Below, piece by piece: positions 58,739 through 62,086 of a DNA stretch of 64,000 nucleotides (positions are counted from its first letter, which is position 1; every line of letters starts with the position of its first letter). This DNA comes from Fidelibacterota bacterium (lineage in GTDB: Bacteria > Pseudomonadota > Alphaproteobacteria > Rhodospirillales > Rhodospirillaceae). Location: positions 372,001 to 436,000 of the forward strand of contig CANJBL010000001.1 in assembly GCA_947472795.1 (NCBI GenBank). The letters are read 5' to 3'. The notes under the pieces are model-generated. The model was given only the letters and a program-made list of their open reading frames with translations. It searched no databases and had not been told where the DNA came from. The position numbers were made by a program, and so were the translations under genes.

Positions 58739-59887
58739 ATGGCTTATTTCCGCAACTCCGACGTCAATCTCGTCAATCTGCACTTCGGCATCCGGGCGGT
58801 CTCCATCTACGGGGCCGGTGCGTTCTTCTTTGTCTTCATGCTGAAGTCCGGCGTGGCCTTGCCGCTGGTGCTGGTGTCGCTGGCGTGCATTCTGGCGGGC
58901 CGCTTCATTATCCGTCCGTCGGTGGTGTTCCTCGCGGCGCGTTATGGCTTACGCAATGTTCTTGTGTTCGGCACGCTGCTGAATGCCGTGGAGGCGCCGC
59001 TGTTAGGTGAGGTGCAAGGTGTGGGTTCGGCTTTGGTGGCCTTCTGCATCGTTTCGTCGGTAGCGGACACTTATTACTGGACGACCTATCACGCTTATTT
59101 CGCCGCCGTCGGCGATCATGAGCACCGCGGGCATCAGCTAGGCGTGCGCGAGGCTGTCGTCGCCATCGTCGGTATCATCAGTCCACTTGTCATGGGCTTC
59201 GCGCTGGTGGCCTTCGGGCCGCGTATTGCTTTTGGGACAACCGCCTTCATCCAACTCTTCTCGGTCATTCCGTTGTTGTTCACCCCGCGCGTTCCTGTCG
59301 TGCGTATCGCCCCCGGTGCATTCAAGGCCGCCATTCCGGGCATGCTGTTATTTTTCGCCGATGGCTGGATTCAAATGGGTTATGGCATCGCCTGGCAGAT
59401 GGCGCTGTTCCTGTCGCTGGGCGAGGACTTCACGGCCTACGGCGGCGCGCTCGCCATTGCAGCTCTCGTGGGCGTGGTGGCGAGCCTAGCGCTTGGGCGT
59501 CACATCGACGCAGGGCACGGCAAGCGCGCGGTATGGCTGGCTTTCATCGTGCTCGGCGCAACGATCGTTTTCCGCGGCGCGGCTGTCGGGCATGCCACGC
59601 TCTCCGTCATCGCCAATGCACTGGGTGCGCTGGTGGCGGCGCTCTATACACCCACGCTGATGACGGCGGTCTACAACCTCGCGAAGGGCTCACCCTGTCC
59701 GTTGCGATTCCATGTGGCGACGGAAGGCGGCTGGGATGCGGGCGGTGCGTCGGCGTGTTTGATCACGGCACTGCTGATCTATCTGGGAGCGCCGCTCGCC
59801 GTAGGTGTTCTTCTGAGCCTGGCCGGAGCAGTGGGATCGTTTGTCATGCTGCGGCGCTATTACGCCCGAACATCTCTAGCGACGTAA
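58739..59887 (+). CDS. MFS transporter
   Basis: This 382-residue inner-membrane protein has about 11-12 TM helices with MFS features, starting at an ATG preceded by GGGAAAG. The N-terminal half has MAYFRNSDVNLVNLHFGIRA and a loop YHAYFAAVGDHEHRGHQLGVRE; the C-terminal half has a PCPLRFHVATEGGWDAGGA segment that is not one I know. The substrate is unknown. It is divergent from the truncated methyltransferase and its 3' end overlaps the HNH-family gene by 12 bases. The codon use matches the surroundings. Confidence 0.75.
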   Translation: MAYFRNSDVNLVNLHFGIRAVSIYGAGAFFFVFMLKSGVALPLVLVSLACILAGRFIIRPSVVFLAARYGLRNVLVFGTLLNAVEAPLLGEVQGVGSALVAFCIVSSVADTYYWTTYHAYFAAVGDHEHRGHQLGVREAVVAIVGIISPLVMGFALVAFGPRIAFGTTAFIQLFSVIPLLFTPRVPVVRIAPGAFKAAIPGMLLFFADGWIQMGYGIAWQMALFLSLGEDFTAYGGALAIAALVGVVASLALGRHIDAGHGKRAVWLAFIVLGATIVFRGAAVGHATLSVIANALGALVAALYTPTLMTAVYNLAKGSPCPLRFHVATEGGWDAGGASACLITALLIYLGAPLAVGVLLSLAGAVGSFVMLRRYYARTSLAT

Positions 59888-60943
59888 GGATGCGCGCCCG
59901 CGCAGTGGCGTCGTGTCTTTGACAAGAGTAATATCCGGAACCACGGACGGCACAGCCGCGCTATGTGCCGCGTGCCGCATTTTGCGGGTGAACTCTTCCC
60001 ATCGCGCTTGGACCGCCCGCATGTCGATGCTTTGGCCGTTGCCGAACACAAGGCGTGTTCCGGCGAACATCTCATATTCGCTGCCGGTCAAATCCTCATG
60101 GAGGACAAGCTCCATGTTTTGCGGATTGAAGCCGATCAAGTCCAGGTCGAAGAGCGTATGCAAGTCGCTCCGCAGCAAGACGCCGTTGGCTGGGTGCGTC
60201 TCTGTGCTGCGTCCCTGGCGATTGACAGCGCAGGCTTCCAGCAGCGCGAGCACGGCGCAGCCCGTGACCATGCAGCGTGGTCCATACCTGCGGATCAGCT
60301 TGTCGCGGAACGTCGTGAGCCCGCGCCGTTGGCGAATGGCGAAGAAAGGCTTGTCTTGCTCATCGATGCTCGGCAACGGATGAAACTCGGCGGAGTCGCC
60401 GTCGCCATCACCGAGATCGAGCATGCGGTGGTTCAGCCAGTCGCGGAAAATCGCCGCCATTTTGTGATCGCGTCGGGCAACGTAGCTGCACAGGCCGATA
60501 AGATCAGCACGTTTCAACTTCACATGACGGCTGTTGGTGAGTTCGAAAGGGCGCAGCTCTGCTGGCTCGATCTGCGCGGCCACGGCGGCATAGTCATAAG
60601 AGAACAACACCGTGTGCGACACGGCAAGTTCGTGCGCTTCCACAGGTGTTGTGAACTGATGGCCGTGGAAGCAGCGATAGCGCATGCCACGCTGCTTGCG
60701 GGCCTCGATATCGGCGACGCCGCAGAAGGGACACTTGCGCACAAGCAATTCACGGCGCTTCGACGTCACATCCTCGACGCGCGCCACGGCAACGAGGCGG
60801 CGCTGGTCACGCAGGAAGATCAGGTCGCGCGCGACGATATGCTTCTTGCTGCGATCGGCGGTCTGATACGTGTACGACGTCAGCGGCGCGCGAGCGGGCG
60901 CGTCGGTATCGATCTTGGGTGTAACGGCGATCCAGCCTTGCAT
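59876..60943 (-). CDS. HNH-family protein with PUA/EVE-like N-terminus and altered active site
   Basis: This 355-residue protein starts at the ATG at 60943; the frame is open back to 61207 but those residues look non-coding. Residues 20-65 (SYTYQTADRSKKHIVARDLI, FLRDQRRLVAVARVEDV) resemble a PUA/EVE-type fold that can read modified bases. A zinc-ribbon follows (CPFC at 71-74, Cys91 and His93/95). The C-terminal part resembles the HNH_2 domain: CMVTGCAVLALLEACAV, then ANGVLLRSDLHTLFDLDLIG. Where relatives have EAAHI, this protein has EACAV, so residue 239 is Ala and not the metal or catalytic His. It may thus be an inactive nuclease or DNA-binding protein. Its 3' end overlaps the MFS gene by 12 bases. 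Confidence 0.65.
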   Translation of the reverse strand: MQGWIAVTPKIDTDAPARAPLTSYTYQTADRSKKHIVARDLIFLRDQRRLVAVARVEDVTSKRRELLVRKCPFCGVADIEARKQRGMRYRCFHGHQFTTPVEAHELAVSHTVLFSYDYAAVAAQIEPAELRPFELTNSRHVKLKRADLIGLCSYVARRDHKMAAIFRDWLNHRMLDLGDGDGDSAEFHPLPSIDEQDKPFFAIRQRRGLTTFRDKLIRRYGPRCMVTGCAVLALLEACAVNRQGRSTETHPANGVLLRSDLHTLFDLDLIGFNPQNMELVLHEDLTGSEYEMFAGTRLVFGNGQSIDMRAVQARWEEFTRKMRHAAHSAAVPSVVPDITLVKDTTPLRGRASLRR

Positions 60944-61034
60944 GAACGGGGCGCTATCTTGATTGCGACATGATTTAACAATTACACGCGGATGCCCCCG
61001 TCTTATTGTTGCAGTTCGGTGAAGAATTGTTTGC

Positions 61035-61050: not shown

Positions 61051-61197
61051 AACTCCGTAAGTCGTTTGTACATCGTACGTATTTGAGTGGAGGGCCGCAT
61101 AAACGCAGGCAATAAGACAGTTTCATGACGCTCTGCGACGTTGCAGAGGTGTGAAGGCTTTGAGACAAGCGCGGGGACATTACATAAGGACCCGCAC

Positions 61198-61698
61198 GTG
61201 ATTTCATATTCCTCGCGCTCTGTTATCGCCCTGACGCTGCTGGGAGCCGTGTTTGCGCAAGCCCCGGCTTTCGCCCGCCAGGACAGCAATGTCATCGCCA
61301 AAGCGGCACCGATGCCGCAGCTGGGTCAAAGTGCTGTGGATGGTTACGCACTGGCCGATCAGATCGAGTCCCTCATCGCGATGCGCGCGGCCATGATGGA
61401 GCGCACGGCGCCGCAGCCTGCTACCAATTGCAAAGATGAAGGTGAAGTCGCCCGCCGTCTCACAGCGCTGGCGGAACTGGACGGTTTTGCTCGCTCAACG
61501 GTGGCCGGTCTCATTGATGCAGCACCCAGCCTGGAGCTGCGTGCGATGACGGAAGAAAAGCTGATGTTGGTGATGCTGGAGCACCGCGCCGGCATGCGCA
61601 CAGCCTATGGAAATCTGTTGGATTTGCCGGTGGTGCGTGAGAAGGGCGCTTTGGCCGCGGATATCGCGCGGCTTGCTGAGCAAGCCGCGCGTCCGTAA
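61198..61698 (+). CDS. Small exported hypothetical protein
   Basis: This 166-residue protein starts at a GTG at 61198 with AAGGA 7 bases upstream. An upstream ATG-less extension is not credible. A signal peptide spans about residues 1-25 and ends in PAFA-RQDS. The mature part is Ala-, Leu- and Glu-rich and mostly helical, with two cysteine-free helices and no family I can name. It may be a periplasmic helical protein. It converges with a TPR gene 31 bases away. Confidence 0.6.
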   Translation: MISYSSRSVIALTLLGAVFAQAPAFARQDSNVIAKAAPMPQLGQSAVDGYALADQIESLIAMRAAMMERTAPQPATNCKDEGEVARRLTALAELDGFARSTVAGLIDAAPSLELRAMTEEKLMLVMLEHRAGMRTAYGNLLDLPVVREKGALAADIARLAEQAARP

Positions 61699-61729: not shown

Positions 61730-62086
61730 TTAGTGAGCTGTTGTTGCGATGCCGGCAATGCGGCGCCGGGCAAGGCTCTTGGCGCGTGTCTGGTCCGAGC
61801 CGACTTCGACTCGCGGATTGCGATCAAGCTGAAGAACCTGGCCATAGAGATTCATGGCTTCATCGGCGCGGCCGGTGTTCTGCAACACATAAGCCAGATT
61901 GAGAAGGCGCTGCGGATCGGTCGGGTTCTGCGCGAGACCCTGACGCAGCAGTTTCTCGGCTTCACCCCACTGACCCTTCTGAACAGCCGTGTACGTCTGT
62001 GCAGCCTCATCCGGGCTGGACGCGGCGAAAGCCGGGGCTGTCATCAAGCCGGCGGCGAAGGCGCAAGTCAGTAGAATGTGTTTCAT
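61730..62086 (-). CDS. Exported TPR-repeat protein
   Basis: This 118-residue protein has a signal peptide (residues 1-21, MKHILLTCAFAAGLMTAPAF plus A) and about one and a half to two tetratricopeptide repeats (AAQTYTAVQKGQWGEAEKLLRQGL, read as two halves, then DPQRLLNLAYVLQNTGRADEAMNLYGQVLQLD). It is likely to be a periplasmic protein-protein adaptor. GGGAGA lies upstream of the ATG. The partner is unknown. It is transcribed away from the large intergenic region that precedes the TonB-dependent receptor. Confidence 0.78.
   Translation of the reverse strand: MKHILLTCAFAAGLMTAPAFAASSPDEAAQTYTAVQKGQWGEAEKLLRQGLAQNPTDPQRLLNLAYVLQNTGRADEAMNLYGQVLQLDRNPRVEVGSDQTRAKSLARRRIAGIATTAH

Follow-up and report, generated by a model that had tools for sequence, protein, structure and literature searches.

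An EVE–zinc ribbon–HNH_2 protein without its general-base histidine in a genus of Rhodospirillaceae

What becomes of a restriction-type nuclease gene when a catalytic residue is replaced and the reading frame stays whole? The question is raised by a gene on the − strand of the window, the 64,000-nt stretch of DNA analyzed here (assembly GCA_947472795.1, contig CANJBL010000001.1, positions 372,001 to 436,000). Its product, hereafter the window protein, has 355 residues, which set the numbering used throughout. Pseudoenzymes are well known among kinases and proteases. A literature search, with subscription papers mostly outside its coverage, returned no description of an inactivated HNH or a His-less EVE–HNH restriction protein. 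EVE–HNH fusions are predicted in PMC7641849 to be type IV restriction enzymes and are reviewed in PMC12707154. We suggest, with a probability of roughly 0.55, that the window gene is a resident descendant of an EVE–zinc ribbon–HNH enzyme of the restriction type and that its product most likely binds nucleic acid and cuts inefficiently.

The gene, its parts, and two neighbors have the following coordinates in the window.

59876–60943, − strand: EVE–zinc ribbon–HNH_2 gene, 355 aa plus stop; the ATG at 60943 is the start shared with homologs
60746–60943, − strand: EVE/PUA-like domain, first part (residues 1–66)
60653–60745, − strand: zinc ribbon inside the EVE domain (residues 67–97; C71, C74, C91, H95)
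60506–60652, − strand: EVE/PUA-like domain, second part (residues 98–146)
60338–60505, − strand: linker of helices followed by a low-confidence stretch (residues 147–202)
59969–60337, − strand: HNH_2 (beta-beta-alpha-metal) domain (residues 203–325)
60227–60229, − strand: codon 239, GCT (Ala), site of the general-base His according to alignments
60185–60187, − strand: codon 253, Asn of the HNH, kept; aligned to VcaM4I N241
60158–60160, − strand: codon 262, last His of the HNH, kept; aligned to VcaM4I metal ligand D250
60146–60148, − strand: codon 266, Asp, kept; aligned to VcaM4I D254
61141–61698, + strand: divergent small protein with no Pfam match, whose true start may be downstream; adjoins the HNH gene in 8 of 10 genus genomes
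61730–62086, − strand: TPR protein; adjoins the HNH gene or its small neighbor in 9 of 10 genus genomes

The frame of the gene runs for 355 codons with no internal stop or frameshift. A longer mechanical ORF reaching 61207 was rejected as the gene because homologs in the genus share a start of the form MQ/MK/MR-x-W. HNH_2 (PF13391) matches residues 234–273 (E 1.3e-5; 25.3 bits against a cut-off of 21) and all 31 rows of our alignment of relatives (A3). The Pfam search of the window protein gave no EVE match by sequence, and a few rows of A3 have scattered weak matches to ribbon families over the zinc ribbon, which in the window protein probably binds zinc through C71-x2-C74 and C91-x3-H95. The antisense strand carries a 336-aa ORF that covers almost all of the gene (59963–60973, + strand), and homologs L021 and L024 also have long antisense ORFs. 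The antisense ORF is probably mechanical because dS of the HNH gene between L021 and L023 (1.58) is not lowered relative to eight neighboring genes (0.77–1.69).

The organization of the protein is best seen in its predicted fold. An AlphaFold2 model built on 31 sequences has a mean pLDDT of 82.4 and a pTM of 0.51, with low confidence at residues 175–201 and in the tail; the beta-beta-alpha elements of the HNH (235–239, 254–258, and 259–266) are well predicted, and a model of the Cys-form homolog L023 has the same elements (mean pLDDT 82.2). Residues 1–160 resemble EVE, ASCH, and YTH domains in fold. According to the model and structure searches, an EVE/PUA fold precedes the HNH domain, as in proteins of the VcaM4I type. 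A preliminary description of the locus, made from its letters, had proposed a PUA/EVE-type reader joined to a zinc ribbon and an HNH_2 domain; the EVE-like fold and the inserted C-P-x-C...C-x-x-x-H ribbon support that architecture. The structure prediction and nuclease alignment it had proposed identify VcaM4I, an EVE–HNH modification-dependent restriction enzyme, as nearest to the whole chain.

VcaM4I (PDB 6yex) ranks at the top of the Foldseek search (E 6.1e-10, probability 1.00), and the TM-score of 0.27 and rmsd of 19 indicate that domains are placed differently in the window model. VIA-align pairs the two with Z 12.4, structural alignments give 15–19% identity, and a profile alignment by sequence covers the HNH part only (E 9.2e-11). 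Both proteins have an N-terminal EVE domain, a helical linker, and a C-terminal HNH in which residues pair one to one (A239/H224, N253/N241, H262/D250, and D266/D254). Unlike VcaM4I, the window protein lacks the general base and has a zinc ribbon inserted in its EVE domain; the word zinc is absent from the main text of the VcaM4I paper (PMC7897488). TagI (PDB 6ghs) has a similar HNH fold (VIA-align Z 11.8, rmsd 4.1 over 112 residues) but an SRA reader in place of EVE, and is active on 5mC/5hmC DNA (PMC7897488 and PMC12707154). The N-terminal domain is matched best, after VcaM4I, by that of chain A of DISARM DrmAB (PDB 7s9w and 7s9v): 7s9w_A aligns to model residues 3–169 with Z 9.7, rmsd 3.2 over 111 residues, and 18% identity (Foldseek E 0.059). 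This chain exceeds 1200 residues and has no HNH match in the alignment, and the likeness is one of fold only. The N-terminal domain is nearer to 7s9w than to single EVE domains (Z 9.7 versus about 8). The remaining VIA-align matches are EVE/ASCH domains at about 8 (2eve, 8.3; THYN1, 8.2) and YTH domains at about 5.5–7.

The residue that distinguishes the window protein is at position 239. It is Ala, in the motif EACAV, where five sisters in the genus read EACHV with no gap between the motifs. All 21 full-length rows of A3 from outside the genus, drawn from the best 80 of 155 relatives, read EAAH[I/V], in agreement with the earlier reading that EACAV stands where relatives have EAAHI. Codon 239 is GCT in the window gene, CAT or CAC in the five sisters, TAT in three homologs, and TGC in one. 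A frame error that fakes EACAV was ruled out, as the other two frames give no sister motif.

Mutagenesis of VcaM4I indicates what the residue does. According to PMC7897488, H224 activates the attacking water, N241 is structural, D250 is a metal ligand, and D254 is a probable substitute for another ligand. Mutants H224A, D250A, and D254A are drastically impaired, H224A both in vitro and in phage assays, and upon overexpression some restriction is left in the mutants, H224A included. Because A239 aligns with H224, the lost residue is the general base. The preliminary description had spoken of a "metal or catalytic His"; the catalytic half of that phrase holds, and the metal half does not. It had also stated that the later Asn and His are kept, which is the case for N253 and H262 and extends to D266; H262 and D266, of the metal site, are invariant in the 31 rows. 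Judged from these alignments, the window protein lacks its general base and keeps the aligned metal-site residues and Asn253. By analogy with the H224A mutant it probably does not cleave, and the restriction left to that mutant when overexpressed means that weak cutting is possible. As far as residue 323, the HNH domain contains no new His that could serve as a replacement: the five His-bearing sisters all share H250 and H262, and four of them share H282. H324 and H327 begin the variable C-terminal tail. Codon 238 (60230–60232) encodes Cys in the window protein and in its five sisters, L016–L020, where relatives have Ala; the position before site 239 is a metal ligand in many HNH enzymes (PMC7897488).

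The reader half has changed more widely across the genus. Of the positions at least 90% conserved in the 21 non-genus rows, the window protein keeps 5 of 17 in the first part of the EVE domain (12 are changed or deleted) and 0 of 6 in the second. The ribbon has kept all 6 of its 6 such positions, the linker 1 of 2, and the HNH domain 28 of 38. An average of 5.4 of the 17 first-part positions survive in the His-bearing sisters, and the EVE motif of non-genus relatives is missing in all ten genus proteins, a feature absent from the preliminary description. Since the His-bearing sisters lack the EVE motif too, its change most likely predates the catalytic loss. A profile built from the EVE part does not align to 6yex, the structure with the VcaM4I pocket residues P24, W82, Q128, and Y130.

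Loss of the histidine is rare outside the genus. A genome collection was scanned with peptide patterns that leave out residue 239, yielding 155 relatives of which the best 80 were examined; in a motif recount by script, His is kept at 66 of the 70 non-genus loci among these 80, and L065, L074, L076, and L086 lack it. HNH_2 is the sole Pfam match in L065 and L074, a profile to be read knowing that Pfam also misses the EVE domain of the window protein, and by eye their N-terminal region is different. L076 (6495–8384) and L086 (6819–8378) are pentapeptide-repeat and HNH_2 proteins of Laspinema and Oscillatoria; they read EAVYL/EAVYF and HPSSG, with both the first His and the Asn lost, and by their motifs this group is likely another set of inactive HNH proteins. 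Uncharacterized proteins of Paraburkholderia, Sphingomonas, Rhizobium, Calothrix, and others share the EVE–zinc ribbon–HNH_2 architecture. The 21 non-genus rows (among L025–L060, from the best 80 of 155) are 23–30% identical to the window protein and keep EAAH[I/V] and the EVE motif R-Q-Y-G-G-N-x-G-Y-x-D, both of which are missing in the window protein. An order-wide hunt through 317 genomes (E 1e-10, at most six first-look candidates scored per genome) gave one near full-length match outside the genus, L151, in which EAAHV and the EVE motif are both present; the remaining non-genus matches of the hunt cover the HNH part.

A3 and the tree leave out L031 (nearly identical to L030 and at a contig end), L038 (short), L044 (long N-terminal extension), L047, L049, L053, and L057 (partial), L048 (N-terminus out of frame), L050 (other N-terminus), L051, L054–L056, L059, and L061–L095 (matching mainly the HNH part), and L058, a genus fragment that retains the His. 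L058 (4056–4478) lies in the genome of the Cys form, G005, and is a 141-aa ORF with an intact EAAHI site; it adjoins a 344-aa ORF and a 654-aa ORF, the latter guessed by eye to encode a GHKL-type ATPase.

Within the genus, a full-length copy is present in 10 of the 19 genomes, and half of these ten homologs lack the His: site 239 is Ala in the window protein, Tyr in three, Cys in one, and His in five. The tree places the window protein as sister to the five His-bearing proteins (support 88/83; 100/99 for the six together) and the Tyr and Cys proteins in a separate group (94/84), which implies a minimum of two changes at site 239. Forcing the five His-less rows into one clade is rejected (AU p value of 0.023, or 0.011 when residues 236–252 are removed). 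Site 239 has thus changed separately in two lineages of the genus. Because the placement of L024 is open without active-site columns 236–252, there may have been two or three losses. A scenario in which the ancestor lost the His and the five sisters regained it is as parsimonious as two losses; we consider it less likely.

Selection after the loss is clearest in the Tyr/Cys group. We used a codon likelihood script (317 columns, one start per model, and bounded branch lengths) and pairwise NG86 estimates, which are rough where dS is above 1. On the four post-loss branches of L021–L023, omega is 0.047, and fixing it at 1 costs 271.7 lnL. Pairwise omega among these three is 0.059–0.084 overall, 0.078–0.111 for the whole HNH domain, and 0.014–0.031 for the HNH core (224–268), inside which site 239 alternates between Tyr and Cys. 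Between L021 and L023, eight neighboring genes have omegas of 0.052–0.340, seven of them above the 0.059 of the HNH gene. With an omega of about 0.05, these proteins have been under strong purifying selection since the loss and are not decaying. The stem branches of the Tyr/Cys group (with L024) have a higher omega, 0.197 against a background of 0.09, which fits a phase of relaxed selection and counts against our preferred explanation.

The window gene itself has a less direct record. Omega on its branch was estimated at 0.02 or 0.08 under different models, and a value of 1 is worse by 15.8 lnL. Synonymous change on this branch is saturated, the branch length hit the optimizer bound in the two-omega model, and the branch includes time before the loss. 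The protein keeps 72 of the 75 positions invariant in the other nine genus proteins. Where the five sisters are fixed, it differs at 6 of 13 positions in segment 236–252 and at 6 of 58 elsewhere in the HNH domain (Fisher p 0.006 for this contrast, with the segment picked after viewing the alignment); in the linker it differs at 6 of 21. The preliminary description had listed a decoy, a regulator, and a decayed defence protein as options; the last does not apply to L021–L023, and in the window gene changes center on the active site rather than being spread throughout, although this single copy may be decaying.

The locus is partly conserved and the gene itself is often missing. Eight of the 10 genus genomes with a full-length copy have the small protein and the TPR gene together next to it; in L024, the TPR gene alone adjoins the HNH gene, and in L020 neither neighbor does. 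Eight of the 19 genus genomes, several of them incomplete assemblies, have no match to the HNH gene; G012 has a C-terminal remnant only, from about Asn253 on, and G013 has both neighbors with no HNH gene detected. The gene is dispensable in the genus, which counts against our preferred explanation. PADLOC gave no match for six of the eight neighbors. Its matches to partial models link a small methyltransferase to mad2 (E 5e-20) and an ABC exporter to mad3 (E 2e-35) and mad8 (2.6e-8), and we take these as shared domains because Pfam reads them as Methyltransf_25 and as ABC_membrane plus ABC_tran.

These patterns bear on whether the window copy represents the early decay of a restriction gene, with its catalytic residue gone and its frame not yet broken. 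The absence or truncation of the gene in 9 of 19 genus genomes favors this reading, as do the identity of its HNH core to the five sisters (0.689, versus 0.893 among the sisters) and its being the only HNH_2 match in its genome. We nevertheless regard early decay as rather unlikely because the frame is unbroken, the EVE domain and ribbon have changed at only 5 of 61 sister-fixed positions, and the Tyr/Cys group has been retained long after the same kind of loss. That the protein still cuts, with another base such as H250 or by altered chemistry, is improbable. The invariant H262 and D266 and the residual activity of overexpressed VcaM4I H224A speak for it. Against it, H250 is not new, as the five His-bearing sisters also have it, and it is variable across the family; Tyr243, next to site 239, was lost together with His239 in both lineages; and the sister group has either Tyr or Cys at the site.

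Two further readings explain the loss by a partner or by the host, and we give each very little weight. VcaM4I forms dimers (PMC7897488), and the window protein could pair, as an inactive partner, with an active HNH_2 paralog in a mixed dimer; the intact 141-aa ORF in the Cys-form genome is the kind of partner this would involve. An active paralog in its own genome was rejected, as no second HNH_2 match is found there at E 0.001, and among the other genus genomes a second match to the query or to the A1 profile occurs in G005 only, an assembly 71% complete in 400 contigs. Alternatively, a host cytosine-C5 methyltransferase could have made a 5mC-dependent nuclease self-toxic and favored its inactivation, following the logic of modification-dependent enzymes. 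A gene matching PF00145 is present in two of five hosts of His-less forms, but also in one of five His-bearing hosts and three of nine others, and the genome of the window has no PF00145 match. With no association across the 19 genomes, some of them incomplete, this conflict was set aside.

Under the explanation we prefer, descent from an EVE–zinc ribbon–HNH enzyme, an ancestor of the modification-dependent restriction type would have become a resident chromosomal gene of the genus. The base-reading EVE motif would have been rebuilt or lost in the genus ancestor, and the water-activating His then lost at least twice, here by His239 to Ala, while the fold, the zinc ribbon, and the metal-site residues were retained. 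The protein most likely still binds nucleic acid, and possibly a metal ion, without efficient cutting, and would act by occupying its target, either as a regulator or by blocking incoming DNA without cleaving it. The separate losses of the His in the genus, with the rest of the protein retained, suggest that the protein is kept for a job other than cutting. A more specific version, which we hold tentatively, is a domesticated non-cutting DNA- or RNA-binder comparable to dead Cas9, in which the reader pocket was rebuilt first, catalysis was then repeatedly removed, and the metal-site helix was strongly selected for a new regulatory or roadblock role.

The same catalytic residue has been lost separately within one genus, and natural His-bearing sisters are available, mostly at the same locus. 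Comparison across this genus is thus suited to asking how a restriction nuclease turns into a binding protein and what the cellular job of a non-cutting modified-base reader may be.
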